Positions 24,396 to 43,416 of a stretch of 64,000 nucleotides of DNA are shown here, in pieces. The stretch lies in assembly GCA_963680875.1 (NCBI GenBank), contig OY804580.1, forward strand, positions 99,291,353 to 99,355,352, given 5' to 3'. Source of the stretch: Bathymodiolus brooksi (lineage: Eukaryota; Mollusca; Bivalvia; Mytilida; Modiolidae). Made by a program: the position numbers and the translations under genes. The notes under the pieces are model-generated. The model worked only from the letters and a program-made list of their open reading frames with translations, had not been told where the DNA came from and made no database searches. Within the stretch, counting starts at the first letter, position 1, and every line of letters starts with the position of its first letter.

Positions 24396-24399
24396 CGTG

Positions 24400-24920: not shown

Positions 24921-24926
24921 GTAATG

Positions 24927-24935
24927 TATATATAA
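24927..24935 (+). promoter_or_regulatory. candidate TATA box of the CARD-Ig gene
   Basis: TATATATAA ends 55 bp before the ATG at 24991, a spacing that would leave a short 5' UTR of roughly 25-30 nt. AT-rich background makes chance occurrence easy. Confidence 0.35.
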
Positions 24936-24990
24936 TGTGTTGCCAATATAAACACCAACTATTCTCTACTGTGTATAATTAAAAACAACA

Positions 24991-25249
24991 ATGGGGAAGA
25001 TACTGGACGTATTTAATGATAATAGAGACGTGATAATCAGCAGATTATCAGAAAACCTCCCTAAGATTGTCAATTTGCTACAAGAAAAGGGAGTTTATAA
25101 AGAAAAGGAGAAACATGACCTCCTGGAAGAAAACTTTTATCTTGTAGTTAAAAACTTGTTTTCCCATGTGGACGCTGGGGGATACTATGCTGAATTCGTT
25201 GAAGCTCTGACAGAAGCGAGGGAAAAAGTTGTAGCAGATTTAGTTAAAG
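24991..25249 (+). CDS. CARD-like first coding exon of a CARD / Ig / coiled-coil gene
   Basis: The ATG at 24991 opens an 86-codon exon ending at AAAG|GTAAGT (donor 25250-25255, near-ideal), in phase 1. The peptide reads as a six-helix death-fold, best as a CARD: FNDNRDVIISRL (helix 1), IVNLLQEKGVYKEKEKHDLL (helices 2-3) and YYAEFVEALTEAREKVVADL (helices 5-6), which resembles the family's FxxALRExGQExLAxxL ending. CARDs make homotypic contacts in innate immune and apoptotic signalling. No signal peptide is seen, so the product should be cytosolic. The phase matches the Ig exons that follow 6.7 kb downstream. A death or death-effector domain is an alternative. The exon boundaries are well supported; the joining to the Ig exons is inferred from phase, strand and order. 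Confidence 0.68.
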
Positions 25250-25263
25250 GTAAGTTGATTTTT

Positions 25264-25350
25264 ATGTGTATGTGTTTTGTAGATCGTTGTTTGTTCTTCT
25301 TCGATATACAGATTCTGATTACCCCTTTGGTATCTTCAAACTCTTCATAA
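25264..25350 (+). repeat. dispersed repeat family A fragment
   Basis: TTGTAGATCGTTGTTTGTTC through CCCCTTTGGTATCTTCAAAC lies just inside the first intron, 14 bp after the splice donor. Confidence 0.7.
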
Positions 25351-27372
25351 ATTTGTGTCTGACTTTTTCAACTTTGATGTAAGCATTTTGTTGGTTTGGT
25401 ACAGGCACTTTAATAAAATCAATTGTACAGATCAAAACCCTATGTCTTAGTGAAATGATGCGGTAATGCAAGTGTTTTCCACTTGAGTAATTAAATAAAT
25501 GCCAGTGTAGAATGTTAATAAAACACTTTATGGTTAATATGATTTTTTGGTGAAAGGATATATGAGTGCAAGCAGAATAACACAAACCTGCTGCAATAAC
25601 TGACAAGTTTTATCACTTACAGTTATAGAGATCATAAGTGCTACAAACTTGAATCGAACTCACAATTTTTGACGATCCTCTATTTCATCAGTCGATAATA
25701 GTAATTACCATGATATACATAGAATAACGACAATTTTGAAGGTCGAGACAGACATTATCAAGAGTATCGCAGCGAGTCCGATATGACGAAATGTGATGCT
25801 AGTGATAATGTATGTCGAGATCTTCAGAACTGACGTTATTGTTTTATCGGTAACGTCATAATGGAAAAAGATAAAATGTTTAAATTACCGATAAAAAAGA
25901 AATATTTTTCATAATTGTAGTACATTCCATACCTCTGACATCAAACATCGAATGTAAATAAACTGTAAATAAACTGTCAGTCATAACACGTTGTTATCTT
26001 TACAAGCACAAATTAACATTATGTATGTACTGACTGTTGCTGTAATGTTCTTGTATTCTGAAAAGTTTTGGGAAGAGTCGCCTGTCAAAGTTACAATGAT
26101 AAAAATCACCATTGCATAAATGTCCGTGAAATACTGAGATTTCCAATTGAAAGTAAACCGATATTTCACTCAGTAAAATGAAAACGTTTATATCACCGTG
26201 TGACGTCACAGTCGCACGTCGCTACAATCGAAAATATCCTTGAGCGTCAAACAATGAAGAGCTATTTCTTTTTGGGAACGTCTTATTCACGCAAACAAAA
26301 TAGTAAAATATGTGTTATAAACAGTACTGTAGTTACCCTCTTATAAGGACCCTCTTATCAGACCAGATTTCAGATACTAACAAAATATCCCCCTCAAGAG
26401 AGACCTACCCTCTTATAAGACAAATTGTTCATTGTGGAAGTGGTGGACTTATAAGAGGGGGTCTACTGGACTACTCTATAGTTACTCTGGTATTCCCAAT
26501 GTCAAACATAAATAACTCGTAACCGAACAACAATGATAATGCACCCAAGTGCTAATGCATGAATCATTATTTTATAAATATTAAAAAGATCATTTTTGTA
26601 TGTTATTATGATTAACTGAAGAAAAAGGGGGAAAAACAACAACAGACAAACAAAAACCCCAAAACAAATGGGAAATACCCATAACACTTAATTCCCAGTC
26701 TACAGTTTAATTTTATATGTACATATCTTGTCCTTTGTCGTCTATAGTATCAAATACCATTGTATATTATTAATTAAATTCCAATTTGTAGGTTATCATT
26801 TAACGAGACATCAATTCCACACGAATTACCAAGTGCTTAATTATTTGTAATTCTATTGTTTGACTGAGATTGTATGTATGGATAAATTAAAATCAATTCC
26901 ACATGAATGTCCAAGTGCTTTATAATTTGAAATTCTATTATTTGACTGATATTGTATACATGGATAAATTAAAATCAGCGTTATTCTTCATGGAGATTAT
27001 TATTATAAACACATTTAAACAAACTATAAATTTCGAAAATATTTGCAATACTTTGTTTAAATCCATATATATATATATGGTCATAATTCGATAGCTAATT
27101 GTTCCCAAGGCCACATATATAAAACAATGGTCAAATATGTGGTGTTTGAACATATACATTAAAACTTATGGCAATATTTCATTGAAATTTCAAAAAAAAT
27201 TTAAATAGAAATTGGGAACAATACCATTTTAAGCAATATGATTATCAGCAAGATCAGGAAGTTACTACTAGCCAAAACATGTTATTGTTATACAATTCTT
27301 CGTCATCCTATACAATATATTAAAATTGTTAAGTTAAATTGCTGTCAAAAGAGATATATATATATATAAACA
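25351..27372. other. intron 1, left part: no exon recognised
   Basis: About 2 kb of AT-rich sequence. A short family F word (GGTACAGGCACTTTAATAAA) lies at 25400-25420. Around 26,330-26,470 the motif CTCTTATAAG recurs four times in both orientations, as in a small palindromic element. No Ig- or CARD-like reading was found. Confidence 0.4.
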
Positions 27373-27650
27373 CTTCCCGGCCCTTTCCTTATTCATGACT
27401 TATCACCGAATTTGTAGCTAGAGTAACACGACGGGTGTCACTAGTGGAGCAGGAACTGTTTACCTTCCGGAGCACCTGAGTTCACTCCCGGTTTTAGTGT
27501 GGCTTGTGTTACTCGATCTTTAGTTTTATTGTGTAATGTTTTACAGATCGTTGTTTGTTCGTTTGTCCTTTTTCTTTTGGCCATTGTGTTGTCTGTCCTT
27601 CGATTTACGGATTCTGAATACCCATTTGGTATCTTCAAACTCTTCTACTT
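27373..27650 (+). repeat. dispersed repeat family A, nearly complete
   Basis: Runs from CCCGGCCCTTTCCTTATTCA, through ACACGACGGGTGTCACTAGT and GGAGCACCTGAGTTCACTCC, to GGTATCTTCAAACTCTTCTA. It is the longest clean copy and the reference for the family. Confidence 0.8.
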
Positions 27651-28103
27651 TCTGCTTCCAGTATATTACTTTTCTTCTGCAAGTCTTTTCACATGTGTTT
27701 TTTCCTGTTGAACTTTAGTAAACTAGTTATTTTTAGCAAGTTATATATATATTTATTATGAAACTACCCCTTTACATCGGGGGCGCCAACCGCCAGGGTG
27801 TCGGTGGCGCGTCTAACTACAGTTATTAAAATGTACATTTATTATGATAAAAGCACATGCAACAAACATATGATAAGACATCTGCCATATATACACACAC
27901 GTTATAAACTGTCCATACACTCTCCATAAAACATCATTTATAATTATACTTAAAATATTTTAAACAGTAACACTCAATACTTCACTTCGTAATCTAAAAC
28001 ATGTTTCAATATACATTTTACCGATAAAATCATAAAATATTCCAATATCATTATTAAAAGCATATCCAATATCACCAACAATAAACTGTAATTTGGCACT
28101 AGT

Positions 28104-28436
28104 TTACTGTTCCATAAAGTCTACACCAATATAATAATCACTAGACTGTTTAGAAACAATATTAAAATATTCATCGCGAACACTAGACAGGACAGGGCAA
28201 TTTAACAAAAAATGTGCGAGATCTTCATCTTCACCGTTATTGCATAACAGGCATTTACTGTGTGCACTTAGGTGCATCCTGAACAGATATTTCTGAAGGG
28301 GTATGGTTTTGGTTCTTGGTAGTAGTTTCAGACGGGAGGCATAAAAATCATTATGGTTATTTAAGTAGTTTTGTTTGCCTAAACTAACAAAACACTGTTG
28401 ATAGAAATCAAGGCTACTTTTAGAGGAGACTTCCAT
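28104..28436 (-). pseudogene. C-terminal zinc-knuckle segment of the same LINE
   Basis: 110 codons with LLPRTKTIPLQKYLFRMHLS and the knuckle CLLCNNGEDEDLAHFLLNCP (C-x2-C-x8-H-x4-C), typical of the far C-terminus of jockey/CR1-type ORF2. Between 28437 and 28811 the reverse strand still reads LINE-like (ALESWQYRAAKIVIK, FINRQKVSYYKRLLELP) in a different frame, so the two pieces belong to one damaged protein. Confidence 0.85.
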
Positions 28437-28811
28437 TAGTAACTTGTCTCTGGCCTGAGATCCATATAACTTGTTAAATTCCTTAATGTTTATACCAAAA
28501 TTACGTCAGGCTGGGTTATTAAACTAGAAACATGTTCCTTGTAATTCCAAAAGCTGTCACCTTTTCTAACCATTTCATTAAATACGGATTTGCATAGTCT
28601 ATTATCGGGAAGTTCTAAGAGCCTTTTATAATATGAGACCTTCTGTCTATTAATAAAGTCGAGAATAGGTTCCCACCCCAGTTCTAGTAACAGGACAGCT
28701 TTAGTATATTCATTCTAGTTTTTATAACGATTTTAGCTGCCCGATATTGCCAGGATTCTAGCGCTTGTTTACACGTTTCGGAAAGAGGCATCCATACAGG
28801 ACAAGCATGGG

Positions 28812-29963
28812 TTAAAGATGGTTAACCGAATTCCAAAGTGATTCACCAAAATTCATGCGATTGAAATCACTATGTTCACCAAGTAGACGGATAAGACAAT
28901 TCAGCTGCTTATCTGCTTTTTCCTTAAGAAAACTATTCACGTGGAAGTTAGATTTTAAGGATCTATTAATGAAATAACCCAGATATTTGTACTCGCCCGT
29001 TTCTTCGATTGGTTCATTTCCTAATTTCCAGGTACCTTCCTTGTTAATGTTTTTACTTGTTATTAAAATTTTAGACTTTTTAGGGTTGAATTTTAGGTTC
29101 CATTTGTTGGCAAAAGCGTTCGAAATATTTAAAAGCTCCTGTAACTCTTCGGGTGATTCGGCTATGAGGACAACATCGTCCGCAAATAAAAGACAATTTA
29201 TCAATTTTGACGAAATATTTGCACCAATACTGCTATTTTCTAGCATGTTTGCTAAATCCGTCATTAAGATAGAAAAAAGCGTAGGGGACAAAACGCAGCC
29301 CTGTTTTAACCCAAACTCTTGGTCGAACCAGTCGGATTCAAAATCACCAAATATTACCTTATTTTCAACCTTTTCATACATTTTTCTTAGTAGTCTCCAA
29401 CATTTCCCTTTTATACCATTTTCCCACAGTAATGCAAAAAGGCCATCTCGCCAGACTCTATCAAAGGCCTTTGATAGATCCAAAAAAGCCAAATAAAGAG
29501 GGTTTCTAGAAGATTTATATAGGGATGCAATACCCTGTAAAGAAAATATTTGGTCTTCAATTCTTCTATCTTTTCGGAAGGCACCTTGAGTTTCACCGAG
29601 TATATTGTTTGATTCTAAAAAATCTAAAATTAATGTTTCCAGGATTTTGGAAAAAACCTTGTTAACATTCGAGGTTAGAGTAATACCTCTATAGTTGTCC
29701 AAATCATATATGGATCCAGATTTATGTAATGGTTTAATAATACCTTTACACCAATCATCTGGTATCATTTCGAAATCTGAAATACATGTAAAAAGATCCG
29801 ACAATGATTTTATCATTATATCCCCTCCATATTTTAGGAACTCATTTGGTATATCATCGATACCGGGAGCCTTACCAATTTTGAGATTATTTAAGGCTTT
29901 CGTTATTGACTTCTCGTTGACATAAATATTAAAAGAGTGACAAATAGGGGATAATTGTATCAT
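28812..29963 (-). pseudogene. LINE reverse transcriptase domain
   Basis: 383 codons with reverse transcriptase blocks in the right order: KAPGIDDIPNEF (residues 31-42), DNYRGITLTSNVNKVFSKIL (89-108), motif A FLDLSKAFD with Asp162, motif B LKQGCVLSPTLF (219-230), motif C LLFADD with Asp262 and Asp263, and KSKIL / YKYLGY (296-300, 325-330). All three catalytic aspartates are intact. The frame starts after the endonuclease and stops after NSVNHL; downstream homology continues in another frame, so at least one frameshift or stop disables the protein. The short open frames on the opposite strand here are shadows. Confidence 0.9.
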
Positions 29964-29984
29964 TTATTTTATTTTATGCAATAT

Positions 29985-30945
29985 ATGTGTCTATGGAAGA
30001 TTGTTCAGAGTTCGGTAATTTTGTTATTACCCTTATAAGTGTGGTCTATGGGTTAATACGTTTCTTCTGCAAGATAAACAATAGTTTGCAGTGATTCATA
30101 AGAAAGTAACAATCTCTAACAGAGCTATCGTTCTTTGATCGCACGACTTTTACAAGATTTTAGAAAAACTAAAGCAACCATTTTTCAAGCGAAATACTAG
30201 ATAATTAGTATCATATGCTCAAATTTCACACACTTTGCTAAATTTCTTTTACATTTTTTATCACGGAATTTAACGATCTTTTTATTTTTTCCCTGATTAT
30301 TTCAGTGCTGTTGCACAATTAAAATTTGTTTTATTCTAAGCCATTAAATAGTCGAAACTGAACAGCATCCACACAATGTTAAATTCATTTCCGTTCCGAT
30401 TAATTCCTGTTTTTATTTGGATATTACTGCACAAACATTGAATACTTAAGACACTGACATGCTGATGTGAGAGAAAAGAGCGATAACTCTTGTATATATT
30501 GATAGACTGTATATTTGTAGCAAACCTTGAAAGGCAGGGTTTAACGTAGCCTTTGTCCCAGCTTCTTAGCCTCATAGACATAAACTTTATATTTTAAGAC
30601 ACTGCACTTAGAAAGTCAACTTTGAACTGTTTTTCTGTGTATTTGTGACTGTTTCCAGGGCTCATACTATAAAGCTACCCAATATTGCCCATGGTTGGGG
30701 ATTTATTTTGGGGGAGGGCTCTGAGGGGGTAAGTATGAAGATGGTGAGTAGTCAGGTTGTAATATGGCAAGCCAGACCGTGAACAACATTGGTTTACGCC
30801 TTTAAATAGTGTCACGCTATTTATATATCTACACGTTTTAAAGACATCTTCGTGGAAATTTGGGAAAGTAGTAGGCACATAGTATACGCTACAAAAGGCT
30901 AAGAGTTTCGTCCTTATCTAACTCTCCATTCTTATCCAGAGGTAG
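29985..30945. other. intron 1, right part: no exon recognised
   Basis: AT-rich. The stretch 30,545-30,610 (CCTTTGTCCCAGCTTCTTAG, CATAAACTTTATATTTTAAG) matches a small element also seen at 45,175-45,245. No other structure was recognised. Confidence 0.4.
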
Positions 30946-30947
30946 TC

Positions 30948-31215
30948 AGGAAGAGTTTGAAGATACCAAAGGGGGTAATCACAATCCGTAAATCGAAAAA
31001 GAACAGACAACACAATGGCCAAAAGGAAAAGTACATAAAGACAAAAAACGATCTACAAAACATACACATAAAATTAAAGACCGAGTAACAGAACCCCACT
31101 AAAACCGGGGGTGAGCTCAGATGCTCCGGAAGGGTAGGCAGTTTCTGTTCCACTAGTCGCACCCGTCGTGTTAATCTAGTTACAAACCCGGTGATAAGTC
31201 ATGAATGATGATCTG
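30948..31215 (-). repeat. dispersed repeat family A, nearly complete
   Basis: Inverse of the 27,373-27,650 copy: GAAGAGTTTGAAGATACCAA through GACAACACAATGGCCAAAAG, ACCGGGGGTGAGCTCAGATG and CACCCGTCGTGTTAATCTAG to GATAAGTCATGAATGATG. Confidence 0.8.
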
Positions 31216-31329
31216 TGTTTCTATTCCTTTCCTTCATTTCTGTCTCGTCTTTACATATTGTTGAATTTATTCTCGTCGTGATAACATATTTGACACTGAA
31301 TGTTAAGAAAAGAACAACCAATAAATCTA

Positions 31330-31935
31330 AATAAACGTTAGAAAAAACCGAAGGTGAAATCAAGAATTGACAATTCAGGGACACTGGCAGTATTGGGTAC
31401 ACAAAATACAGGACGAAGACAAACGAAACAAATAAACGTTAGAGAAAACCGAAGATGAAATCAAGAATTGACAAATCAGAGACAATGGCAGTATTGGCCA
31501 CACTAGACACAAGACGAAGACAAACAAACACGGAAACTCAATACAACACAGAAAACTAAAAAAGATGAGCAACACGGACTTCACTAAAATCCGGGGGTGA
31601 TCCCAGGTGCTCGCACAGGGCAAGCAGTTTCTGTCTTTTCTTATAAGACAACCGCCATGTTTAACATGATGTTATACATATAGTCAAATTGTGTTGGACA
31701 AAAAACAAACACAAATAACATAAATAAGACCTCTTACAAACAACTGGGGGTAGAAACGAGCCCTACATCGTCTTGATGCGGAAATCGTAGCATACATCGC
31801 ATTACGGAACAAGCGACGTAAACATATATGATAGGACAAATAATACACGAGCCCTCCTACAGTCAACTGGGTGTAAAGACGAACCGAGCATCGTTGATAT
31901 GCAGAAATCGTAGCGAACATCGTAGCATGGAACTA
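31330..31935. repeat. dispersed repeat family D, two partial copies in tandem
   Basis: Words such as CAATACAACACAGAAAACTA, GTGTTGGACAAAAAACAAAC, AACAACTGGGGGTAGAAACG and ATGCGGAAATCGTAGCATAC define a family recurring at 32.6, 34.2, 35.7, 37.2, 42.9, 44.2, 48.5, 50.5 and 51.3 kb. Here the distal part is duplicated (31,640-31,800 and 31,830-31,935). It immediately precedes the first Ig exon. Confidence 0.7.
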
Positions 31936-31980
31936 GAATTGTTGTGACAAACAAATGTATGTTTTATGTTTTAGGTGTAG

Positions 31981-32241
31981 GCTGCTCTTTTACTACAAAG
32001 CTTGAGGATAGAAATGTTGTACACATTGGCTCAGTTGTTACGTTATCGTGTTGCCTGGACGAGAAACATGGCGTACGATGGTATAGAGATCATTGGAAAA
32101 TATCTATGAACGACAAATTTGAATACAAAAATGAACAGTTGAAACATAAACTTGTAATTGCTGATATACAGGAAAAAGATTCGGGCGTTTATTCCTGCGA
32201 ATGTGGAACAGCAAAAACTAGTTGTATATTGAAAGTCGAAG
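31981..32241 (+). CDS. Ig-domain exon 1 of the tandem cassette
   Basis: Acceptor GTGTAG|GC at 31979-31980 and donor GAAG|GTTTTA at 32242 bound a 261-nt exon, phase 1 to phase 1 (87 residues). The peptide has the Ig fold landmarks: VTLSCCLD (B-strand Cys), VRWYRD (core Trp), KLVIADIQEKDSGVYSCECG (D-x-G-x-Y-x-C signature with F-strand Cys). Spacing fits an I-set/V-like domain; extra cysteines (CC, CEC, SC) could form additional bridges or stay reduced in cytosol. There is no signal peptide. It is the most diverged of the five cassette exons (DEKHGVRWYRDHWKIS). An AG six bases upstream is an alternative acceptor. Confidence 0.8.
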
Positions 32242-33100
32242 GTTTTATTATTTATTTATATTAGTATATTCTTTTTTTACAATTAAGACGAACAAATGGA
32301 ATGAAAAACAAAAAAATACCGTACCGTCGGAACAGCTCTAAAATCCATGAGAAAATCCTTGGAATTAGAGACAAAATTGATACCCCTTTAACAATATATA
32401 CATGACCGATCACTTTCCGGGCTTGGTACAGGCACTTTAATAAGATGCAACTGGGTTAAACTAGTTTTAAGGTACAAAACATCCCTCCGAAGTACTCCGT
32501 TAACGTACATGATTAGAAACAGAAATTGTCATCTTTATGCATAAGAAGCCAACAAAACATTGTGTAATTTTCTAAGGGATTGTTCCTTAATTTATAGCAA
32601 AATGGAAAGAACTAAGTAGCCAGGTATGATATTTACAACAACACGGACAATACCTCCTAATACATTTCAACACAGAAAACTAAAAAGATGAACAACACGG
32701 ACCACTCAAACCCCGGGGTGAACACAGGTGCTCGCGAAGGGTAATGAGTTCCTGTCTTTTTCTTATAAAACACCCTCCCTGTTTTACATATAGTCAATAC
32801 GTGTTGGACACTACTATACGTAAACAAACATGAATAACATAAATAAGACATCAACCCTCCTACAAACAGCTGGGGGTAAAACCGAGCCAAACATCGTTTT
32901 TATGCGGAAATCATTACTGAACAAAGAACATCAATATATATGACAGGACAAATAATACATTAGCACTCCTACAGACAAGTGGGGATAAGGACGAACTAAA
33001 CATCATCTTTATTCAGAAATCGTAAAGGACATCGTAACGAGGAACTACAATTTTGTAAAATTGCTTCACAAATAATTTATGTTTTATGTTTTATTTGCAG

Positions 33101-33361
33101 ACTGTTCTTTTACTACAAAGCTTGAGGATATAAACGTTGTAGACATTGGCTCAGATGTTACGCTATCGTGTTGCCTGGACAAGGAACATGGCGTACAATG
33201 GTATAAAGGTCGGAGTGAAATATGCATGAACGACAAATTCAGATTTAAAGATAAACAAAGGAAACATAAGCTTATAATTACTGATATACAGGAAAAAGAT
33301 TCGGGCGTTTATTCCTGCGAATGTGGAACAGCAAAAACTAGATGCGTATTGAAAGTCGAAG
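33101..33361 (+). CDS. Ig-domain exon 2 of the tandem cassette
   Basis: Acceptor TTTTATTTGCAG|AC (polypyrimidine-like, ends 33100) and donor GAAG|GTTGTA at 33362 give 261 nt, phase 1-1. Ig landmarks: VTLSCCLDKEHGVQWYKG, HKLIITDIQEKDSGVYSC. Unique residues are mostly in the predicted C'-E region (GRSEICMNDKFRFKDKQRKH) and at the end (TRCVLKVEG). The 3' reading continues as CIIYLF then stop if the donor is not used. Confidence 0.8.
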
Positions 33362-33814
33362 GTTGTATTATTTATTTATTTTAGTAAGGTTCTTTTTTCA
33401 TAATTAAGACGAACAAAATAAATGAAAAGCAAAAAATACCGCTTCGTCGAAACAGCTCTAAAATCCATGAGAAAATCGTTGGAATCGGAGACAAAATTGA
33501 TACCCCTTTAACAGATATATACATGACCGATCACTTTCCGGGCTTGGTACAGGCACTTCAATAAAATACAACGGGGTTAAACTAGTTTAAAGGTACAAAA
33601 CCTCCCTCCGAAGTACTTCGTTAACGTACATGGTTAGAAACAGAAATTGTCATCTTTATACATTAGAAGCCAACAAATCTTTTTCAGTTCTATACGCATT
33701 TTGTAATTTTCTAAGGGATTGTTCCTTAATTTATTGCTAAATGGAAAGAATTAATAAGTAGCCAGGTATGATATATATACAACAACACTGACAGTACCTC
33801 CTAATACTTTTCAA

Positions 33815-34080
33815 CCGCATCAGTGGTGTACTGGTAAGCTTCTTCGTAGGTTCGAGCCCCGGTTGGGTCAAACCAAAGACAATACAAATGGTATCTGCTG
33901 CTTTCCTACTAAGCACACAGGTTGAAGAAGTAAGAGTATATACTGGTTGGCTCGGAATCAGGATAATATGCTTGAGTGGAGCGACAGGTCTACCCACGGA
34001 AAGTTCTCGTGGGTAGATAGCACAATTAACATAATCAAATTAAGCATGTTGGCATAATACAACAAGAACACCATTATTAT
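33815..34080 (+). mobile_element. SINE-C copy, tRNA-derived SINE in the Ig intron
   Basis: Head with A-box-like CAGTGGTGTACTGGTAAGCT and B box GGTTCGAGCCCCGG, followed by body words GGGTCAAACCAAAGACAATA, GGTATCTGCTGCTTTC, GGTTGGCTCGGAATCAGG and GGAGCGACAGGTCTACCC. Copies at equivalent positions in later units show that it was duplicated with the Ig unit. Confidence 0.78.
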
Positions 34081-34612
34081 TTCCGTGTATGTAACTTGTT
34101 CTCTGCATAATACGGCTGAAAATGTCTTTGTTTCTTTGTACTTTCCTTCATTTCTGTCTAGTCTTTATATATTATTGAATTTGTTGTCGTCTTGATAACA
34201 TATTTGACACTGAATGTTAAGCAAAGAACAATCAATCAATCTAAGTAAGGGTTAGAGAAAACTGAAGGGACAATCCAGAAACACTGTCAATATTGACACA
34301 AGACACGAGAGACGAGAGGAAGAAAAACAAAACACAAAAAACACAACACAACACAGAAAACTAAAAAGACGAACAACACGGGCCACACCAAATATCCTGG
34401 TGTGAACACAGGTGCTCGCGATGGGTAATGAGTTCCTGTCTTTTTCTTATAAGACACCCTCCCTGTTATAGATATAGTCAATACATATTGGACACTACTA
34501 TACGCAAACAAACATCATCTTTATGCAGAAATCAAAACGGACATCGTAACGAGGAACTACATTTTTGTAAAATTGCTTCACAAAAAATGTATGTTTTATA
34601 ATTTATTTGCAG

Positions 34613-34873
34613 ACTACTCTTTTACTACGAAGCTTGAGGATATAAATGTTGTACACATTGGCTCAGATGTTACGCTATCATGTTGCCTGGACAAGGAACA
34701 TGGCGTACAATGGTATAAAGATCAGAGTGAAATATCTTTGAACAAAAAATTTAAATTTAAAGATGAACGGTTGAAACATCAACTTATAATTGCTGATATA
34801 CAGGAAGTAGATTCGGGCGTTTATTCCTGCGAATGTAGAACAGCAAAAACTAGTTGTAATTTGAATGTCGAAG
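34613..34873 (+). CDS. Ig-domain exon 3 of the tandem cassette
   Basis: Acceptor TTATTTGCAG|AC ends at 34612, donor GAAG|GTTGTA at 34874; 261 nt, phase 1-1. Landmarks VTLSCCLDKEHGVQWYKD and HQLIIADIQEVDSGVYSCEC are intact. Compared with exon 4 it differs at 12 of 261 bases, ten of them amino-acid changing, including SLNKKF here and SLNDKF there, and CECRTA here and CECGRA there. Confidence 0.8.
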
Positions 34874-35324
34874 GTTGTATTATTTATTTATATTAAAGTA
34901 TGTTTTTTTTCACAATTAAGACGAACAAATTGAATGAAAAACAAAAAATACCGCACCGGCGGAACAGCTCTAAAATCCATGAGACAATCCTTGGAATCAG
35001 AGACAAAATTGATACCTCTTTAACAGATATATACATGACCAATCACTTTCCGGGCTTGGTACAGGCACTTTAATAAGATGCAACGGGGTTAAACTAGTCT
35101 TAAGGTACAAAACATCCCTCCGAAGTACTCCGTTAACGTACATGATTAGAAACAGAAATTGTCATCTTTATACATAAGAAGCCAACAAATCTTTATCAGT
35201 TCTATACGCATTGTGTAATTTTCTAAGGGATTGTTCCTTAATTTACTGCAAAATGGAAAGAACTAAGTAGCCAGGTATGATATTTTCAACAACACTGACA
35301 GTATCCCCTAATACATTTCAACCG

Positions 35325-35575
35325 CATCAGTGGTGTACTGGTAAGCTTATTCGTAGGCTCGAGACCCGGTTGGGTCAAACCAAAGACAATACAAATGGTA
35401 TCTGCTGTTTTCCCACTAAGAACATGGTTGGCTCGGAATCAGGATAATATGGTTGAGTGGAGCGACAGGTCTACCCGCGGACAGTTATTCCACTGAGATA
35501 GCACAATTAACATAATCAAATTAAGCATTTTGGTATAATACAAAAGGAACCCCATTATTATTTCCGTGTATGTAT
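35325..35575 (+). mobile_element. SINE-C copy in the Ig intron
   Basis: CATCAGTGGTGTACTGGTAA, B box GGCTCGAGACCCGG and the GGGTCAAACCAAAG body. A short internal part (the ACAGGTTGAAGAAGTAAGAG word) is deleted relative to the 33.8-kb copy. Confidence 0.75.
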
Positions 35576-36093
35576 CTTTTTCTCTGCATAATACGGCTGA
35601 AAATGTCTTTGTTTCTTTGTACTTTCCTTCATTTCTGTCTAGTCTTTTTATATTATTGAATTTGTTGTCGTCATGATAACATATTTGACACTGAATGTTA
35701 AGCAAAGAACAATCAATTAATCTAAGTAAGGGTTAGAGAAAACTGAAGGGACAATCCAGAAACACTGTCAATATTGACACAAGACACGAGAGACGAGAGG
35801 AAGAAAAACAAACACAAAAAACACAACACAACACAGAAAACTAAAAAGACGAACAGCACGGACCACATCAAAATCCTGGGTTGAACACAGGTGCTCGCGA
35901 TGGGTAATGAGTTCCTGTCTTTTTCTTATAAGACACCATCCATGTTATACATATAGTCAATACGTATTGGACACTACTATACGCAAACAAACATCATCTT
36001 TATGCAGAAATCGAAACGGACATTGTAACTAGGAACTACATTTTTGTAAAATTGCTTCACAAATAAAAAGTATGTTTTATAATTTATTTGCAG

Positions 36094-36354
36094 ACTGCTC
36101 TTTTACTACAAAGCTTGAGGATATAAATGTTGTACACATTGGCTCAGCTGTTACGCTATCATGTTGCCTGGACAAGGAACATGGCGTACAATGGAATAAA
36201 GATCAGAGTGAAATATCTTTGAACGATAAATTTAAATTTAAAGATAAACGGTTGAAACATCAACTTATAATTGCTGATATACAGGAAGTAGATTCGGGCG
36301 TTTATTCCTGCGAATGTGGCAGAGCTAAAACTAGTTGTAAATTGAATGTCGAAG
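36094..36354 (+). CDS. Ig-domain exon 4 of the tandem cassette
   Basis: Acceptor TTATTTGCAG|AC ends at 36093, donor GAAG|GTTGTA at 36355; 261 nt, phase 1-1. The B- and F-strand cysteines and core Trp are kept, but the residue after Trp is Asn (QWNKD) where the others have Tyr, a core-adjacent change that may weaken packing. Its nearest relative is exon 3. Confidence 0.8.
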
Positions 36355-36804
36355 GTTGTATTATTTATTTATATTAAAGTATGTTTTTTTTTACAATTAA
36401 GACGAACAAATTGAATGAAAAACAAAACATACCGCACCGTTGGAACAGCTCTAAAATCCATGAGACAATCCTTGGAATCAGAGACAAAATTGATACCCCT
36501 TTAACAGATATATACATGATCGATCACTTTCCGGGCTTGGTACAGGCACTTTAATAAGATGCAACTGTGTTAAACTAGTTTTAAGGTACAAAACATCCCT
36601 CCGAAGTACTCCGTTAACGTACATGATTAGAAACAGAAATTGTCATCTTTATGCATAAGAAGCCAACAAATCTTTTTCAGTTCTATACGCATTTTGTAAT
36701 TTTCTAAGGGATTGTTCCTTAATTTATAACAAAATGGAAAGAACTAAGTAGCCAGGTATGATATTTACAACAACACGGACAATACCTCCTAATACATTTC
36801 AACC

Positions 36805-37060
36805 ACATCAGTGGTGTACTGGTAAGCTTGTTCGTAGGCTCGAGCCCCGGTTGTGTCAAACCAAAGACAATAAAAATTGTATCTGCTGCTTTCCCACTAA
36901 GCACATGGTTGGCTCGGAATCAGGATAATATGGTTGAGTGGAGCGACAGGTCTACCCGCGGACAGTTATTCCACTGAGATAGCACAATTAACATAATCAA
37001 ATTAAGCATGTTGGCATAATACAAAAGGAACACCATTATTATTTCCGTGTATATAACTTT
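36805..37060 (+). mobile_element. SINE-C copy in the Ig intron
   Basis: Same head and body as at 35,325, sharing the same internal deletion next to GCACATGGTTGGCTCGG. That ties units 3 and 4 together as the latest duplication. Confidence 0.75.
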
Positions 37061-37604
37061 TTCTCTGCATAATACGGCTGAAAATGTCTTTGTTTCCTTG
37101 TACTTTCCTTCATTTCTGTCTAGTCTTTATATATAATTGAATTTGTTGTCGTCATGATAACATATTTGACACTGAATGTTAAGCAAAGAACAATCAATTA
37201 ATCTAAGTAAGGGTTAGAGAAAACTGAAGGGACAATCCAGAGACACTGTCAATATTGACACAAGACACGAGAGACGAGAGGAAGAAAAACAAAACACAAA
37301 AAACACAACACAACACAGAAAACTAAAAAGACGAACAGCACGGACCACATCAAAACCCTGGGGTGAACACAGGTGCTCGCGATGGGTAATGAGTTCCTGT
37401 CTTTTTCTTATAATACACCCTCCATGTTATACATATAGTCAATACGTGTTGGACACTACTGTGTGCAACCAAACATGAATAATATAAATAAGACATCAAC
37501 TCTCCCACAAACAGCTGGAGGTAAACCCGAGCCAAACATCGTTTTTATGCGGAAAACGTAACGGAACAAAGAACATCAATATATATGATAGGACAAATAA
37601 TACA

Positions 37605-37955
37605 TTTTATCCTGCAATGACAGCATTTACCGACCAATATAGCCTGCTCAATATTTTGTTTATGTTGGTCAGTTATAAATAGAACATACAAATGTAAAAC
37701 GGGACACATCGGGGGATATTGTTTTCAAATACATACACAAAATTATTTCAAATACTGTTATCATCGTCCAGTAAACGTTTATTTACGATTTAAAATTGCA
37801 GGATAAATACAATAAATGTGCACTGTCGAAGCATATATGTGTATTCGGCGCGACACGCGGGAAAAGGCTCGGCTCATCCTCACCTTTTCCGCTGTTTCTA
37901 AGCCTCATACACATATTACCTATATGCTTCGACAGTGCACCAGTATTGTATATAT
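37605..37955. mobile_element. about 350-bp insertion in the last Ig unit, with a 20-bp inverted repeat
   Basis: In unit 2 the sequence AATAATACATTAGCACTCCT is continuous. In this unit the same flanks (GACAAATAATACATTTTA and TCACTCCTACAGACAAG) are split by about 350 bp. The insert contains GTGCACTGTCGAAGCATATA at 37818-37837, repeated in inverse at 37921-37940. It has no long open frame. A non-autonomous element is likely. The 37820-37940 part also carries a CCTTTTCCGCTGTTTCTAAG word resembling the small element at 30.5 and 45.2 kb. Confidence 0.65.
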
Positions 37956-38096
37956 CACTCCTACAGACAAGGGGGGGGGGTGTAAGGACGAACTAAACAT
38001 CATCTTTATGCAGAAATCGTAAAGGACATCGTAACGAGGAACTACATTTTTGTAAAATTGCTTCACGAAAATGTATGTTATATGTTTTATTTGCAG

Positions 38097-38357
38097 AGTG
38101 TTCTTTTTCTACAAAGCTTGAGGATAGAAACGTTGCAGGCATTGGCTCATATGTTACGCTGTCGTGTTGCCTGGACAAGGCACATGGCGTACAATGGTAT
38201 AAAGGTCGGAGTGAAATATCTTTGAACGATAGGTTTAAATTTAAAGATGAACGGTTGAACCATCAACTTATAATTGCTGATATACAGGAAAAAGATTCGG
38301 ACATTTATTCCTGCGAATGTGGAACAGCAAAAACTAGTTGTATATTGAAAATCAAAG
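38097..38357 (+). CDS. Ig-domain exon 5 of the tandem cassette
   Basis: Acceptor TTATTTGCAG|AG ends at 38096, donor AAAG|GTTTTA at 38358; 261 nt, phase 1-1. Landmarks VTLSCCLDKAHGVQWYKG and HQLIIADIQEKDSDIYSC; the usual D-x-G is D-S-D here. It carries its own variants (VAGIGSYVTL, LNDRFKF, LKIKG). Its intron contains a SINE-C copy and ends near 39,080, after which the duplication stops. Confidence 0.8.
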
Positions 38358-38804
38358 GTTTTATTATTTATTTATATTAGTATATTCTTTTTTTTACAAT
38401 TAAGACGAACAAGTTGAATGAAAAAAAAATACTGTACCGTCGGAACAGCTCTAAAATCCATGAGACAATCGTTGGAATCAGAGACAAAATCGATACCCCT
38501 TTAACAATATATACATGATCGATCACTTTCCGGGCTTGGTACAAGCACTTTATTAAAGTAGAACGGGGTTAAACTAGTTTTAAGGGACAAAACATCCCTC
38601 CGAAGTATTCCGTTAACGTACATGATTAGAAACAGAAATTGTCATCTTTATGCATAAGAAGCCAACAAATCTTTTTCAGTTCTATATGCATTTTGTAATT
38701 TCCTAAAGGATTGTTCCTTAATTTATCGCTAAATGGAAAGAACTAAGTAGCCAGGTATTATATATACAACAACACTGACAATACCTCCTAATACATTTCA
38801 ACCA

Positions 38805-39070
38805 CATCAGTGGTGTACTGGTAAGCTTCTTCGTAGGTTCGAGCCCCGGTTGGGTCAAACCAAGGGGGAAAAATGGTATCTGCTGCTTTCCCACTAAGCA
38901 CACAGGTTGAAGAAGTAAGAGTATAGACTGGTTGGCTCAGAATCAGGATAATATGCTTGGGTGGAGCGACAGATCTACCCGCAGACAGTTGTTCTACTGA
39001 GATAACATAATCCAATTAAGCATGTTGGTCTAGTACAAAAGGAACATAATTTTTATTTCCGTGTATGTAA
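38805..39070 (+). mobile_element. SINE-C copy after Ig exon 5
   Basis: ACATCAGTGGTGTACTGGTA, B box GGTTCGAGCCCCGG, GGGTCAAACCAAGGGGG, and the ACAGGTTGAAGAAGTAAGAG word kept as at 33.8 kb. It resembles unit 2's SINE more than those of units 3 and 4. Confidence 0.75.
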
Positions 39071-39339
39071 ATTGTTCTCGGCATAATACTGCTGACAATT
39101 TGCCATTAAGCAACAACCATTAACTCGCTCAATTCTTATACGTTTTCGGGTTTAACATAGTTATTATATGTTACCGGTTTCAAAGAACCTTTCCACATCC
39201 GTTTTTTTCGTTTGTGAATGTGAATGTGTTGCACTATATATTCAGAGTATGATTTTCTGCAATGTTCTCGTTAATAAAAGTAGAATTTTATCACAATCTT
39301 ACAAAACACACATATAACTCTCAATAAATGAGTATCAAA

Positions 39340-39540
39340 CACAAACGTAGGTATCAAATTTAGTAGGCACGGCATGTTTCTTGGAAAAAAACCTTCATCA
39401 GGTACAGTCAGAAACAATAGATTGGAAATACAAATAATGTAAAAATCATTGCGAGCAAGAAAACCAAAGGGCCTAAACAGTATAGGCTATGGTCACCTAA
39501 ACCTGAAGGATGAGAACATTAGTTTTAATAGCGAGCATCG
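39340..39540 (+). repeat. dispersed repeat family E
   Basis: GTAGGTATCAAATTTAGTAG, GGCATGTTTCTTGGAAAAAA, CCTTCATCAGGTACAGTCAG, then AACCAAAGGGCCTAAACAGT and GGTCACCTAAACCTGAAGG. Five other copies lie at 50.3, 60.0, 60.5, 61.3 (inverse) and 63.15 kb (inverse). Confidence 0.75.
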
Positions 39541-39925
39541 CAAGATGCGAGCTAAACAGCAACATGTGTGTAATATATACTATCAATACCAACCGGAAAT
39601 GGATTCTAAGTTTCGGCATAGGATGGATAATTGGAGTGAATTACAGGAAATAGTCTTTTAATTTGAATAAAAAATAACTATCCAGTTTAAAAATAACAAA
39701 GAAAAAATAAAAAAAATATAAAGGAAATCGTACAAGCTTCTTTACATGAAACGATCAATTTATTTAAAAAATGGACAATCGTAGTTTCAGAAACTGATAT
39801 ATCTGATAACCACAAAGTACAACAACGAGCAACTACGGACTTATAACACTTTCCAGGCGGGAAGTATATGCGATGCTCGCCTGTAGGCTGTGCCTAATCC
39901 ATATTGATAATTACATCACTTTGTA

Positions 39926-40065
39926 ACTGTGATGTTCGTGTTGCTAGATCTTTAATATTTTGTGTAACGCTTGGCAGATCGTTACTTTTTTTTTTCGTTT
40001 GGCCATTGTATTGTCTGTCCATATTCGATTTACGGCTTCTGATTACCCCTTTGGTATTTTCTTCG
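39926..40065 (+). repeat. dispersed repeat family A fragment
   Basis: GATGTTCGTGTTGCTAGATC through CGTTTGGCCATTGTATTGTC to GATTACCCCTTTGGTAT. Confidence 0.7.
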
Positions 40066-40179
40066 ATAGATAATATATTTAATAAATAATGTCAGTGCCG
40101 AAGCACTGACTACTGAGCAGATGATGCTCTCAGGGACTAAGAGTTTAAATTTATTTGCATCTTTTTCTCTGTTTTGTAG

Positions 40180-40451
40180 CTTACTTATTCAAAAAACAGC
40201 TAGAAAACCTTACAATTACTTCAGGTGAAAAGCTGATCCTAACTTGTGAGCTGAACGCAGAATGCAAAAATGTTAAATGGTACAAAATAAATGGTGCCTT
40301 ATCATTTAGGGCCACCTGTATCAATGATAAGATAGCTGATAGTAATGCACACCAGTACCAGCTAGCAATCAACCATGTTAAAATGGAGGACGCTGGAGAG
40401 TACAGATGTGGCATCGAGAATGTCATAACCATCTGTAACGTCATGGTTAGA
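40180..40451 (+). CDS. divergent sixth Ig-domain exon, phase 1 to phase 0
   Basis: A pyrimidine-rich tract and acceptor (CTTTTTCTCTGTTTTGTAG) end at 40179; the donor AGA|GTATGT lies at 40452. The 272-nt exon enters in phase 1, like the cassette exons, but leaves in phase 0, exactly what the coiled-coil exon needs. The peptide shows a complete Ig pattern: KLILTCELNAECKNVKWYKI (B-strand Cys, core Trp) and YQLAINHVKMEDAGEYRCG (D-A-G-E-Y-R-C). It is clearly diverged from the five cassette exons and lacks their CC and CEC cysteines. It has a strong donor, so it is probably constitutive. Confidence 0.8.
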
Positions 40452-40964
40452 GTATGTGTCTTATGTTAATTTTATCAGAAACACACCGCTATAAAAGGAA
40501 AGTTTTAATAGTGATGGTCAATGATTCCATCAATATCAATTAAGCGAGCAACCACCTCTCACCATAAATCATTGAACATAAAAACGATCACGACATATGA
40601 CATTGCAAATTCCATGTCATGGCTTTGAGACAGGCACAAAAATGTTGCGGGATTAAAACCGTTATTGGGATCCTAATTCTCTCCTCTTGAGAATAGAATA
40701 TCCAATGACTATACAGATATAAACAAAGGATACAATGCATGAATAGATGTGTATGTATTAATACATTACGTTTATCAAAGTGGAATATCTCAGAATTGCA
40801 AAAACAGAACCTGCAGTACCATGACAATGTAATAAATTCGCGAGAAATTGTTTTTAAAGTCAAACCTGCCCATGCGGTCAACTCTCATTAGCAGCCACAT
40901 GTATTAAAATATCTACTTTGTATTGTCATTCTATGAAAAATTTCCTATGAATTGAAATTATTTC

Positions 40965-41290
40965 TTTGAGCCACGGGGGACTTGTAAATAGGACAATCCC
41001 ATAGGAAATGGTTCTCATCTTCAATTTTATTGTCTTTACAAAGGGTACATATTCTATCGGTCTTAGACTTTTTGGAGTATCTGCCCCTTTCAATGTCCAA
41101 GCTATAGGCACTTAGCCTTAGTTTGCCAAATGTGATCTGTCATTACGATTGGTTAATTCGTTGACATATGATCATGAAGCACGCTTTCCAAATTCACAAA
41201 ATTCTCTATAGAATGACAGTTTTGATGATTCCGAAATAATAATATTTTGCTGTTGCATATGTTGATCATTAATACGTTGCTGTAGCTGGT
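40965..41290 (-). pseudogene. LINE ORF2 C-terminal fragment in the intron
   Basis: The reverse complement reads QRINDQHMQQQNIIISESSK, KLSFYREFCEFGKRA, then after frame breaks KLRLSAYSLDIERGRYSKKS and the zinc-knuckle CTLCKDNKIEDENHFLWDCP (C-x2-C-x8-H-x4-C). This is the extreme C-terminus of a jockey/CR1-like protein, a different copy from that at 28 kb. Confidence 0.75.
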
Positions 41291-41314
41291 TAACTAATGG
41301 TTTGAGGGAGGTAC

Positions 41315-41545
41315 ATGTGTTGAAGTATGATATATCGTGGTGGTCAGTTTTATTGTGGAGTACCCGGAGAAAACCACCGACCTGTTGCAGGTCGTTGACA
41401 AACTTTATCACATAATGTTGTATCGAGTACACTTCGCCATGAACGGGGTTCGAACTGATAACTTTTATGGTGATAGGCACTGATTGAATAGTAGTTGTAA
41501 ATCCAGCTAGCATACGATAACTACCACGACGGCCTCATTGATGAT
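41315..41545 (-). mobile_element. SINE-B copy, tRNA-derived SINE
   Basis: Inverse orientation: GTGGTCAGTTTTATTGTGGA, AAACCACCGACCTGTTGCAG, B box as GGTTCGAACTGATAAC, head ending TAACTACCACGACGGCC. The GTTTAACGCC tail is missing. Confidence 0.8.
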
Positions 41546-41837
41546 ATTTGAATTGGTGACTTAAGGACAATTTATACAGTAGTTGAGTTGCTGTGTCAAT
41601 ATGTTGGAACTAACTTATGGGTCAAATTAAAAAAAAAATAAAAATAACAAATAACGAATCAGGGCGAAGCCTTTTATTGTTGTCATCTTATTTTACGAAA
41701 GGGACGTAACTCTACTACTAACCATATATTAAAAGTGCTGACCGTTTATTGAATTTCTACGGTTTCCACGTATTTGCTATAAACCAATGCTTTTCATAGA
41801 AATACGAAGTATGTAAAAGGTAAGATATAGTGCTTTA

Positions 41838-42085
41838 CAGGGACCGTCGTTGTCCTGATCATATGGTAGTTGGATTTACAGTGATTATCACCACTAAAGT
41901 TGTGAGTTCGAACCCCGTTCATGGCAAGGTGTACTCGATACTACATTATGTGATAAAGTTTGTCAGTGACTTGCGACAGGTCTGTGGTTTTCTACGGGTA
42001 TTCCGGTTTTCTCCAACAATTAAACTGACCGCCACGATATGAGTGAAATATTGTTGAAAGTGTCGTTAAGCATCATAAACTAAGC
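41838..42085 (+). mobile_element. SINE-B copy just before the coiled-coil exon
   Basis: Near full length: CGTCGTTGTCCTGATCATAT, B box GTGAGTTCGAACCCCG, ACTTGCGACAGGTCTGTGGT, AAACTGACCGCCACGATATG, tail GTGTCGTTAAGCATCATAAA. It ends about 30 bp before the acceptor at 42113, close enough to overlap the branch-point region of this intron. Confidence 0.82.
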
Positions 42086-42113
42086 TAAACTACATGTGCA
42101 TACTGCTTTATAG

Positions 42114-42648
42114 GAAAGAACGGAAATACAGATTGATGCTTCAGTAGAAACAACGGAACTGTTGTATGAATTGAACAGCACAATAGCCCGGCTAGAAGTG
42201 ACGAACGATGAAATATTACACACACAGACGAAATTAGGTGGGGCAGAAACAGAAGTAAAAGAAAACGAAATTATTATAAGAGAAAGAGAAATTATTATAG
42301 AAGAAAAAGAAACAGAGATAGCAAAACTTAAAGCTCTGGTTAAGGAACAAGGAGATACGCTAAAAATCAAAGAAAGTGAACTAGAAAACAAAGATAACTA
42401 CATTGAAGAACTCGAAGACAAAAGCGAAAAATTGGCAGAATCCGTTAAAATACTTGAATCAATATGTAAAGATTTAAAATTCACTAAACAACAGTCGGCA
42501 GAAATGAAGGAACATATTGAGAAATTGGAAGGCGAAAAACAGCACCTGGAAGTAAGAGTTAGCATCCTTGAATCATACATTAATAAAGGGAAAACTACCA
42601 ACGAGCAACAACAAGCGATTCTAGAAGATATCAGCAGAAAGTTGGAAG
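42114..42648 (+). CDS. coiled-coil exon of the CARD-Ig gene
   Basis: Acceptor TTTATAG|GAA (ends 42113) and donor GAAG|GTACGT (42649) define a 535-nt exon entering in phase 0, matching the donor of the sixth Ig exon, and leaving in phase 1. Its 178 residues are almost wholly charged heptad-like sequence (ELNSTIARLEVTNDEILHTQ, EIIIEEKETEIAKLKALVKE, NYIEELEDKSEKLAESVKIL, AEMKEHIEKLEGEKQHLEVR), so a long parallel coiled coil for self-association is likely. CARD followed by coiled coil is the layout of CARMA/CARD9 scaffolds, which oligomerise to nucleate BCL10 filaments. The open frame runs upstream of the first TTG to the acceptor without a stop, which supports an internal exon. Confidence 0.78.
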
Positions 42649-42889
42649 GTACGTATTAATTTTACTTTTGAGTAAAATAGGCCTACGCCTTATTGATAGA
42701 AAGGAGACTAACGATATATTTACATACATCTGTTAGACTCTTGTCCCGAAGATGCTTTTAAACAGAACATTTTTCTCTTATACCGATTTTTTTAAATCGC
42801 GTGTAAATTTGGAGCTGATAGTCGGTTGCCTCACTGTCATCGACAAATATTTCATGCATATTAAGGATGAGAACAAGTTATAAACACTA

Positions 42890-43075
42890 TATAATAAACG
42901 TCAGAGAATACCGAAGGGGCAATCTCAAATGAACAATCCCAACAAGACGAAGAAAAACAAAACAAAAACACAAATAACGTAAATTACACACCAGCCCCCC
43001 CACAAACAACTAAAGGCAAAGATGAACCGAACATCGCTTTCATGCGGAAATCGTAACGGACATCACATAAAGATG
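42890..43075. repeat. dispersed repeat family D
   Basis: TATAATAAACGTCAGAGAAT, ACCGAAGGGGCAATC, ACAAACAACTAAAGGCAAAG, ATGCGGAAATCGTAACGGAC. An internal part of the family is deleted. Confidence 0.7.
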
Positions 43076-43261: not shown

Positions 43262-43416
43262 GCAACATATCAGTTGAAAGATTGCAATTCCGTATGTACG
43301 GTTCAAATGACAACCAACCATTTTTTGATAATGTCAGTAAGGCAAGCGTTATCCTCTGGTGTAAATATTTTGAATATGAAAAAATGGCTACTAGAATGTG
43401 CTACTGCGATGTGTGA
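43262..43416 (+). CDS. weak candidate terminal exon of the CARD-Ig gene
   Basis: If TTTGTAG (ending 43261) is an acceptor, the phase-1 frame demanded by the coiled-coil exon stays open for 51 residues (starting GNISVERLQFRMYGSND) to a TGA at 43414-43416. The total from 24991 is then divisible by three (841 residues with all Ig exons). Against it, there is no domain, the acceptor has a poor pyrimidine tract, and the sequence up to TTAAACTAGTTTTGTAGGCA is similar to repeat family F, so the AG may be repeat-derived. A different frame (43274-43498) is open for longer but is out of phase. Confidence 0.2.

Follow-up and report, generated by a model that had tools for sequence, protein, structure and literature searches.

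In a 64,000-nucleotide window of the Bathymodiolus brooksi genome (the whole stretch of DNA analysed), a set of exons on one strand probably forms a single gene. Its product would be cytosolic and would consist of a short helical head, as many as six immunoglobulin (Ig) domains of the muscle type, and a coiled-coil tail. The explanation that we prefer, at a probability of about 0.45, is that this protein is an oligomeric adaptor of the cytosol, consisting of a helical N-terminal domain, a row of I-set domains of the titin/obscurin type and a partly coiled-coil C-terminal tail. Of interest is an Ig array that would have a helical head on one side and a coiled coil on the other, and that includes recent, apparently optional copies of an Ig exon. 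The features are listed in Table 1.

Table 1. Positions of the candidate exons and of associated features in the window.
Feature	Position	Strand	Basis
Exon 1 (E1), predicted helical domain, 86 codons + 1 nt, phase 0-1	24991..25249	+	Phase; donor 9/9; codon score
Broken reverse-transcriptase-like frames (presumed LINE type), inside intron 1	28104..29963	-	Translations
Five tandemly duplicated units, each carrying one Ig exon (family D1)	31947..38362	+	Spacing 1120, 1512, 1481, 2003
Ig exon 1 (Ig1), phase 1-1; start 31981 with alternative acceptor	31975..32241	+	Pfam I-set 43.8 bits; donor 5/9
Ig exon 2 (Ig2), phase 1-1	33101..33361	+	I-set 46.4 bits; AF2 pLDDT 93.6; donor 5/9
Ig exon 3 (Ig3), phase 1-1	34613..34873	+	I-set 46.2 bits; donor 5/9
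Ig exon 4 (Ig4), phase 1-1	36094..36354	+	I-set 44.5 bits; donor 5/9
Ig exon 5 (Ig5), phase 1-1	38097..38357	+	I-set 38.1 bits; donor 5/9
Ig exon 6 (Ig6), phase 1-0, diverged single copy	40180..40451	+	I-set 40.4 bits; acceptor 15/17 pyrimidines; donor 6/9
Helical, partly coiled-coil exon, phase 0-1	42114..42648	+	Donor 8/9; acceptor 10/17 pyrimidines; heptad signal
Possible last exon with TGA, weakly supported	43262..43416	+	Phase fits; protein then 843 aa

The eight candidate exons from E1 to the helical exon join on the + strand into a reading frame that is free of stops over 792 codons, and every internal exon is flanked by AG on its 5' side and GT on its 3' side. These observations bear out the original prediction of one strand, these exons and matching phases. 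The ATG of E1 has A at −3 and G at +4, with an in-frame TAA upstream (24976-24978). By codon use E1 ranks among the highest 1.0% of 258-nt windows, and it scores high solely in its own frame. The length of the E1 frame is unremarkable, as simulations gave a mean of 1.7 frames of at least 123 aa, and 32 of the 40 runs produced one or more; 12 such frames were observed, counting repeats and mobile elements. Intron 1 is 6.7 kb long and has a retroelement inside, so E1 could belong to something other than this gene, and its joining to the Ig exons is inferred from the sequence. The broken frames in this intron, judged by motifs in their translations, are presumably a LINE-type reverse transcriptase.

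Splice sites differ in quality along the gene. Donors are best in E1 and the helical exon, followed by Ig6, and weakest in Ig1-Ig5, where a score of 5/9 does not rise above background (26% of all GTs have it, and 10% have 6/9), so that some of these five copies may be dead exons. The acceptors of Ig1-Ig5 have 11-12 pyrimidines in 17 positions, and that of the helical exon is no better. With Ig6 at 6/9 and this acceptor at 10/17, the contrast between Ig1-Ig5 and the other exons is partly soft.

Among known Ig domains, those of the candidate come closest to the cytosolic class found in muscle, represented by obscurin, titin and myosin-binding protein C (MyBP-C). All six Ig exons match the Pfam I-set family (PF07679) at 38.1-46.4 bits, where the cut-off is 23.7, and the AF2 model of Ig2, made with the six Ig exons as its alignment, has a pLDDT of 93.6 (the other four AF2 models reach 70.6-80.6); the prediction of six Ig exons is upheld by these results. 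When the Ig2 model was compared with the PDB by Foldseek, the best 50 of 1487 matches (E up to 0.001) were obscurin, titin or MyBP-C, with 20-32% identity to Ig2 in the matches listed, five of which are labelled only ‘IG27’ and are taken to be titin I27. Obscurin and titin were also the best protein-sequence matches, and the first seven PDB matches of an Ig profile were titin and MyBP-C. Adhesion proteins were present among the best 60 PDB sequence matches.

Ig1-Ig5 are tandem copies with equal exon lengths and no stop codons, the latter having a chance of 0.025 under neutrality. In the introns downstream of the copies, the six pairs examined differ, per 600 nt, by 0, 5, 4, 4, 6, and 9 runs of indels. 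At the 26 positions that the copies have in common with Ig6, 11 changes were counted where 18.1 ± 3.5 were expected (2.8% of simulations were as low). Speaking against our explanation, pooled dN/dS of Ig1-Ig5 is 0.77, and their 56 amino-acid changes are not clearly reduced from a neutral value of 60.8 ± 3.8 (13% of simulations were as low). Ig6 has 29% identity to Ig2 in the alignment, and its matches within the window are to Ig1-Ig4 only, plus one chance-level row at E 0.92. Symmetric 1-1 phases mean that any choice among Ig1-Ig5 keeps the frame, and these exons may be optional cassettes.

The same data bear on a possible but rather unlikely alternative, that of a muscle or cytoskeleton protein in which the helical ends of a titin/obscurin-class Ig scaffold would serve to anchor dimers or filaments, and the protein would play no part in immunity. 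This shares its layout with the adaptor and differs in the task assigned to it. It gains from the kinship by fold with obscurin, titin and MyBP-C, and from the same proteins heading the sequence lists, but solved structures are rich in muscle Ig domains, fresh and weakly constrained local copies would be unusual for part of a sarcomere, and no Fn3, kinase or GEF family was found in the three + frames of 42,649-64,000 and 17,401-31,974. The cytosolic Ig arrays known are mainly those of muscle.

The exon that follows Ig6 has no proline and abundant Glu and Lys. A strong heptad signal is seen in 36 of its 154 28-residue windows, a level that 9 of 500 shuffles attain. It is a coiled coil in parts, with a change of register; the coiled-coil exon of the original prediction is therefore helical and partly coiled, but not one unbroken coil. 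No PDB sequence matches it at E up to 0.1. With its donor unused, this exon reads on to a TAA at 42657-42659, giving a protein of 795 aa, and it may be the last exon. The possible exon beyond it is unremarkable in codon score, which 30% of 150-nt windows match or exceed, and a Pfam search to E 0.01 gave no family for it. The weak donors of Ig1-Ig5, their tandem origin, and this possible read-through end are additions to what had been described before.

E1 had been described as a CARD, with a death-fold profile search named as the check, and that description is not supported: nothing is found at family thresholds, and a weak similarity above controls remains. A Pfam search with E values to 10, which recognised 12 of 12 CARD sequences, gave no family for E1, CARD (PF00619), DED (PF01335), and Death (PF00531) included, and no relative was found among PDB sequences. 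On a home-made CARD profile it scores 4.1 bits, where 12 left-out CARDs score 27.9-64.0, seven death domains (DDs) and DEDs 0.6-6.7, and two pieces of coiled coil 2.3 and 4.7. Of 4669 scored shuffles, 61 do as well as E1. Its scores on the corresponding DED and DD profiles are 7.0 bits (reached by 21 of 4919 scored shuffles) and 1.2 bits (349 of 4670). In hhalign, E1 lies above all 13 unrelated controls (its own reversed sequence, seven overlapping coiled-coil pieces, and five reverse-transcriptase pieces) on CARD and DED, both globally and locally. The local scores are 15.6 for CARD, reached by 2 of 150 shuffles, and 20.1 for DED, reached by none of 150; the probability is at most 8.9%, across 29 columns, and with DD profiles E1 does not stand above the controls. 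The PYD of ASC, a true death-fold domain outside the profiles, scores below E1 on CARD and DED, which shows that distant members of the fold escape this test. A single-sequence AF2 model of E1 has three helices and a pLDDT of 67.6, which is too poor for judging a six-helix death fold, and the lack of any death-fold chain in 23 Foldseek rows or the best 50 VIA-align rows for this model therefore carries no weight. On these sequence comparisons, it is possible that E1 is a CARD or a very divergent death fold.

A stronger form of our explanation would be an innate immune scaffold headed by a CARD or DED, in which E1, as a true but very divergent death fold, nucleates filaments and the Ig row binds a partner or ligand, with the coiled coil holding the protein inactive or clustering it as in CARD9/CARMA. 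The lead of E1 over unrelated sequences and nearly all hhalign shuffles would fit such a scaffold, as would the escape of distant members such as the ASC PYD from the test. We consider it unlikely given the absence of a Pfam family, the low hhalign probability, the lack of a lead on DD profiles, the shuffles that equal the CARD score, and the higher score of the protein's own coiled-coil piece on that profile (4.7 against 4.1).

The protein had been predicted to have no signal peptide, and this agrees with a scan of 17,000-31,960 for leader exons with a donor of 6/9 or better, in which no plausible leader was found; the only start, with two donors, is opposite a reverse-transcriptase-like frame. 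E1 does not begin with a hydrophobic stretch, the highest hydropathy mean over 19 residues is 1.23, and Ig1-Ig5 have no N-x-S/T sites. Because no leader exon was found, a cytosolic protein is favoured. Three protein searches gave four, zero and six matches, all of them Ig proteins (from fish, human, insects, and shrimp, with two lacking a name), and the set of six comprised a titin-like first match, two LRIG3 and Robo1 among others, with four of the six of extracellular type or unassigned location. No close relative outside the window was found in these searches, whose targets were limited to 0.55-1.75 times the query length and to shared exact words, with only the 7998 and 7992 candidates richest in such words scored in two of them; given these limits, a missing mussel relative does not amount to proof of absence. 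It is improbable that the Ig exons encode a protein that is secreted or sits in the membrane, with its leader exon beyond the stretch scanned and E1 unrelated to it. The adhesion proteins in the PDB matches, LRIG3 and Robo1 would suit such a protein, as would the extra conserved cysteines of Ig1-Ig5 (five or six in most copies of the alignment), but the leader scan argues against it, the Ig fold is nearest to the cytosolic class, and the titin match P0005 likewise has Cys-x-Cys in the same strand.

Domain scans of the surrounding DNA, read through stops, covered the three + frames of 42,649-64,000, 17,401-24,990 and intron 1. With E up to 0.01 they found no caspase-like domain and no helicase or RIG-I C-terminal domain in 42,649-64,000. 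Nor did they reveal known domains of a wider gene in these three stretches; the sole two matches lay in tandem repeats, each under its curated cut-off (apolipoprotein, 49,012-49,470; decapeptide repeat, 57,127-57,288). There are no further copies of E1, the helical exon or the last exon in the window, and no tRNA genes in 30,000-44,000. It is very improbable that the window holds the N-terminal part of an Ig-bearing RIG-I-like receptor (RLR), or of another longer gene, with the helicase farther on: PMC8998645 reports such receptors (type L4) from Mytilus coruscus, as well as an RLR of oyster that acquired four N-terminal Ig domains via gained exons, but no helicase family follows here in the three + frames of 42,649-64,000, and the helical exon is able to end the protein.

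In the cytosolic adaptor that we prefer, the coiled coil would join chains side by side and so make the Ig row a multivalent binding arm, and E1 would provide homotypic or partner contacts, possibly as a very divergent death fold. The core transcript would consist of E1, Ig6, and the helical exon, with the splice from E1 to Ig6 staying in frame, and Ig1-Ig5, as recent tandem copies with weak donors, would be optional cassettes that alter the arm's length and surface. We infer, rather than show, the cytosolic location, oligomerisation, the optional use of the cassettes and any immune role. If this explanation is true, animals without antibodies could make variable intracellular binding arms from muscle-type Ig modules. 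A bolder version, to which we give little credence, is a cytosolic immune scaffold of a new kind in which variable titin-class Ig cassettes link a divergent death-fold head to a coiled-coil tail, their number set by weak-donor splicing and ongoing tandem duplication; a single gene would then give a set of multivalent receptors differing in reach and surface.

In comparison with known systems, the candidate resembles obscurin, titin and MyBP-C in the fold and class of its I-set domains and in their tandem array, but it is short, has a helical head, a coiled-coil tail and five near-copies, and is without Fn3 or kinase on the + strand of 42,649-64,000 and 17,401-31,974. With CARD9, CARD10, CARD11, and CARD14 it shares a helical head and a partly coiled-coil part; its head is not recognised as a CARD, six Ig exons lie between head and coil, and the helical exon has no PDB sequence match at E up to 0.1. 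MALT1 and other type 1 paracaspases, described in PMC5978004 as having a death domain, Ig and a paracaspase, are similar in that a helical head precedes Ig domains, but the candidate has six of these and a coiled coil, its head is not a death domain by profile, and no caspase-like family follows in the three + frames of 42,649-64,000. With no CARD recognised and no such domain downstream in the window, and with Ig domains nearest to obscurin, titin and MyBP-C, a merger of the MALT1 and CARMA layouts is not supported. The original prediction thus stands for its exons, single strand, phases, cytosolic-class Ig domains, helical exon and the lack of a plausible leader in 17,000-31,960, but not for the CARD head or the merger. 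Among the titles and abstract openings listed in searches of the open-licence literature, none described a protein that combines CARD, Ig and coiled coil. AjNLRC4 of the sea cucumber also ties Ig to an innate-immunity framework with no CARD, although it is a membrane protein with extracellular Ig and a NACHT domain, according to PMC8699970. Unlike the candidate, which has no helicase downstream in the three + frames of 42,649-64,000, the lophotrochozoan L4 RLRs are helicase receptors, but as presented in PMC8998645 these cytoplasmic receptors of bivalves likewise bear N-terminal Ig domains, and they lend plausibility to intracellular Ig binding arms.

The exons and splice phases of the original prediction were rebuilt from the DNA and join without a stop: the first exon (E1), six immunoglobulin exons (Ig1-Ig6) and a helical, partly coiled-coil exon together give 792 codons plus one base. 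With the last donor unused, the frame stops at TAA 42657-42659 (protein of 795 aa), in which case the gene could end with the helical exon. The possible last exon has ordinary codon scores, matches no Pfam family and should not be leaned on as part of the gene. We consider the locus a genuine candidate gene whose domains stand in an unusual order.

Exons of the candidate gene
Exon	Position	Strand	Frame
E1	24991-25249	+	starts at ATG 24991, end phase 1
Ig1	31975-32241	+	phase 1 at both ends
Ig2	33101-33361	+	phase 1 at both ends
Ig3	34613-34873	+	phase 1 at both ends
Ig4	36094-36354	+	phase 1 at both ends
Ig5	38097-38357	+	phase 1 at both ends
Ig6	40180-40451	+	phase 1 to 0
Helical exon	42114-42648	+	phase 0 to 1
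Possible last exon	43262-43416	+	protein then 843 aa

Our best explanation is a cytosolic adaptor in which E1, Ig6 and the helical exon would form the core transcript and Ig1-Ig5 would be five optional cassettes. The phases are symmetric: any set of Ig1-Ig5 can drop out, and a direct join of E1 to Ig6 is in frame. Donors match 9/9 consensus places in E1, 8/9 in the helical exon, 6/9 in Ig6 and 5/9 in each of Ig1-Ig5, the scores shown by 10% (6/9) and 26% (5/9) of all GTs; acceptors carry 15 pyrimidines of 17 in Ig6, 11-12 in Ig1-Ig5 and 10 in the helical exon. Because this contrast between core and cassettes is partly soft, we put the probability of the whole explanation at slightly under one half (about 0.45). 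Among the readings open to test, the most interesting is that a cytosolic scaffold would carry Ig cassettes of optional use.

Alternatively, Ig1-Ig5 could be dead copies. Pooled dN/dS between copies is 0.77 (ten pairs, range 0.42-1.44), and the 56 amino-acid changes are not clearly fewer than the 60.8 ± 3.8 of neutral simulation. On the other side, all five are stop-free (chance 0.025), exon lengths are equal whereas the introns that follow show 0-9 indel runs per 600 nt between copies (6 of 10 pairs examined), and positions common to the diverged Ig6 changed 11 times against 18.1 ± 3.5 expected (2.8% of simulations as low). Constraint is present and weak.

The adaptor, a muscle or cytoskeleton protein and a CARD/DED-headed immune scaffold overlap in layout, so the probabilities of these readings do not add up to one. 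All six Ig exons clear the I-set threshold of Pfam, and five are tandem copies (74-80% protein identity to Ig2; spacing 1120, 1512, 1481 and 2003 nt). Between Ig exons lies a repeated piece (about 33812-33869, 35320-35376, 36800-36857 and 38800-38856), SINE-like by eye with a tRNA-like B-box look, in which ARAGORN finds no tRNA. An AF2 model of Ig2, aligned with the six window copies, reached pLDDT 93.6 in the best of five (others 70.6-80.6), and Foldseek returned obscurin, titin or myosin-binding protein C (MyBP-C) in all 50 matches listed of 1487 (E up to 0.001). By modelled fold, the domains are nearest the cytosolic muscle class. By sequence this lean is softer: against PDB sequences a six-Ig profile places titin and MyBP-C in the first seven rows, followed within the best 60 by adhesion proteins, among them CEA-type ones, DSCAM and contactin, where Ig6 alone likewise finds adhesion proteins. 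A protein search gave six matches, the first titin-like, two LRIG3, one Robo1 and two nameless. Extra cysteines argue against a cytosolic place; the titin match, P0005, carries the same Cys-x-Cys. A cytosolic protein is favoured because of the fold and the missing leader exon: a scan of 17,000-31,960 found a single start, opposite a retroelement frame. Broken reverse-transcriptase-like frames, which by their motifs we take to be of LINE type, lie in intron 1 (6.7 kb) at 28104-29963 on the minus strand.

E1 is weaker than the Ig exons as part of the model, and is probably the first exon. Its frame length alone is unremarkable: with the satellite set aside, a dinucleotide simulation of the remaining 46.5 kb gave an average of 1.7 frames reaching 123 aa against 12 observed, with at least one in 32/40 runs. 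Set against this are its full 9/9 donor and its codon use, which ranks within the best 1.0% among windows of 258 nt and scores 0.138 in its own frame and -0.001 and -0.069 in the others on a table trained on other exons of the gene. The window opens with a 17.4 kb tandem array (1-17396; 54-nt unit, 322 copies, 93% matches), whose long open frames follow from a unit length that is a multiple of three.

The CARD that the original prediction placed in E1 was not shown by Pfam (no family, E up to 10), by PDB sequences (nothing relevant; best E 0.58, a designed protein) or by home-made profiles. A model built from the E1 sequence alone shows three helices (pLDDT 67.6) and is too poor to decide the fold. 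Profiles of 12 CARDs, 4 death domains (DD) and 3 DEDs, each verified by Pfam, gave E1 4.1, 1.2 and 7.0 bits, respectively. On the CARD profile left-out CARDs scored 28-64, against 0.6-6.7 for true DDs and DEDs; two coiled-coil pieces from this window reached 2.3 and 4.7, the second of them exceeding E1. With hhalign, E1 was reached by 1 (global) and 2 (local) of 150 shuffles on CARD, 4 and 0 on DED, and 10 and 14 on DD; it stood above all 13 unrelated controls (the coiled-coil pieces among them overlap one another) on CARD and DED and not on DD, at probabilities never above 8.9%. Since the PYD of ASC, a true death fold left out of the profile sets, scored no better on CARD or DED, hhalign neither shows nor excludes a remote death fold.

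In the three plus frames, Pfam found no known domain in 17,401-24,990 or intron 1, and only two repeat artefacts in 42,649-64,000; within the window this argues against a continuation into a caspase-like domain (MALT1) or a helicase (RLR). The artefacts are spurious matches in tandem arrays at 49019-49469 (33-nt unit) and 56947-57344 (30/92-nt units); a third array lies at 61469-61920 (32-nt unit). A plus-strand frame of 233 aa (46876-47577; no Pfam match, E up to 0.01) resembles the C-terminal portion of a protein from a non-LTR retroelement, and a minus-strand frame of 284 aa (54191-55045) appears by its features to be a Tc1/mariner-type transposase.

With no CARD recognised in E1 and no caspase-like domain found in the plus frames of 42,649-64,000, the proposed merger of MALT1 and CARMA layouts is unsupported, and nothing in the window ties this gene to a CBM route. 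Such a route may exist in molluscs, as PMC5978004 describes a Bcl10 and a MALT1-like protease in oyster. Bivalve RLRs with N-terminal Ig domains, described in PMC8998645, show that Ig domains have entered cytoplasmic immune receptors.
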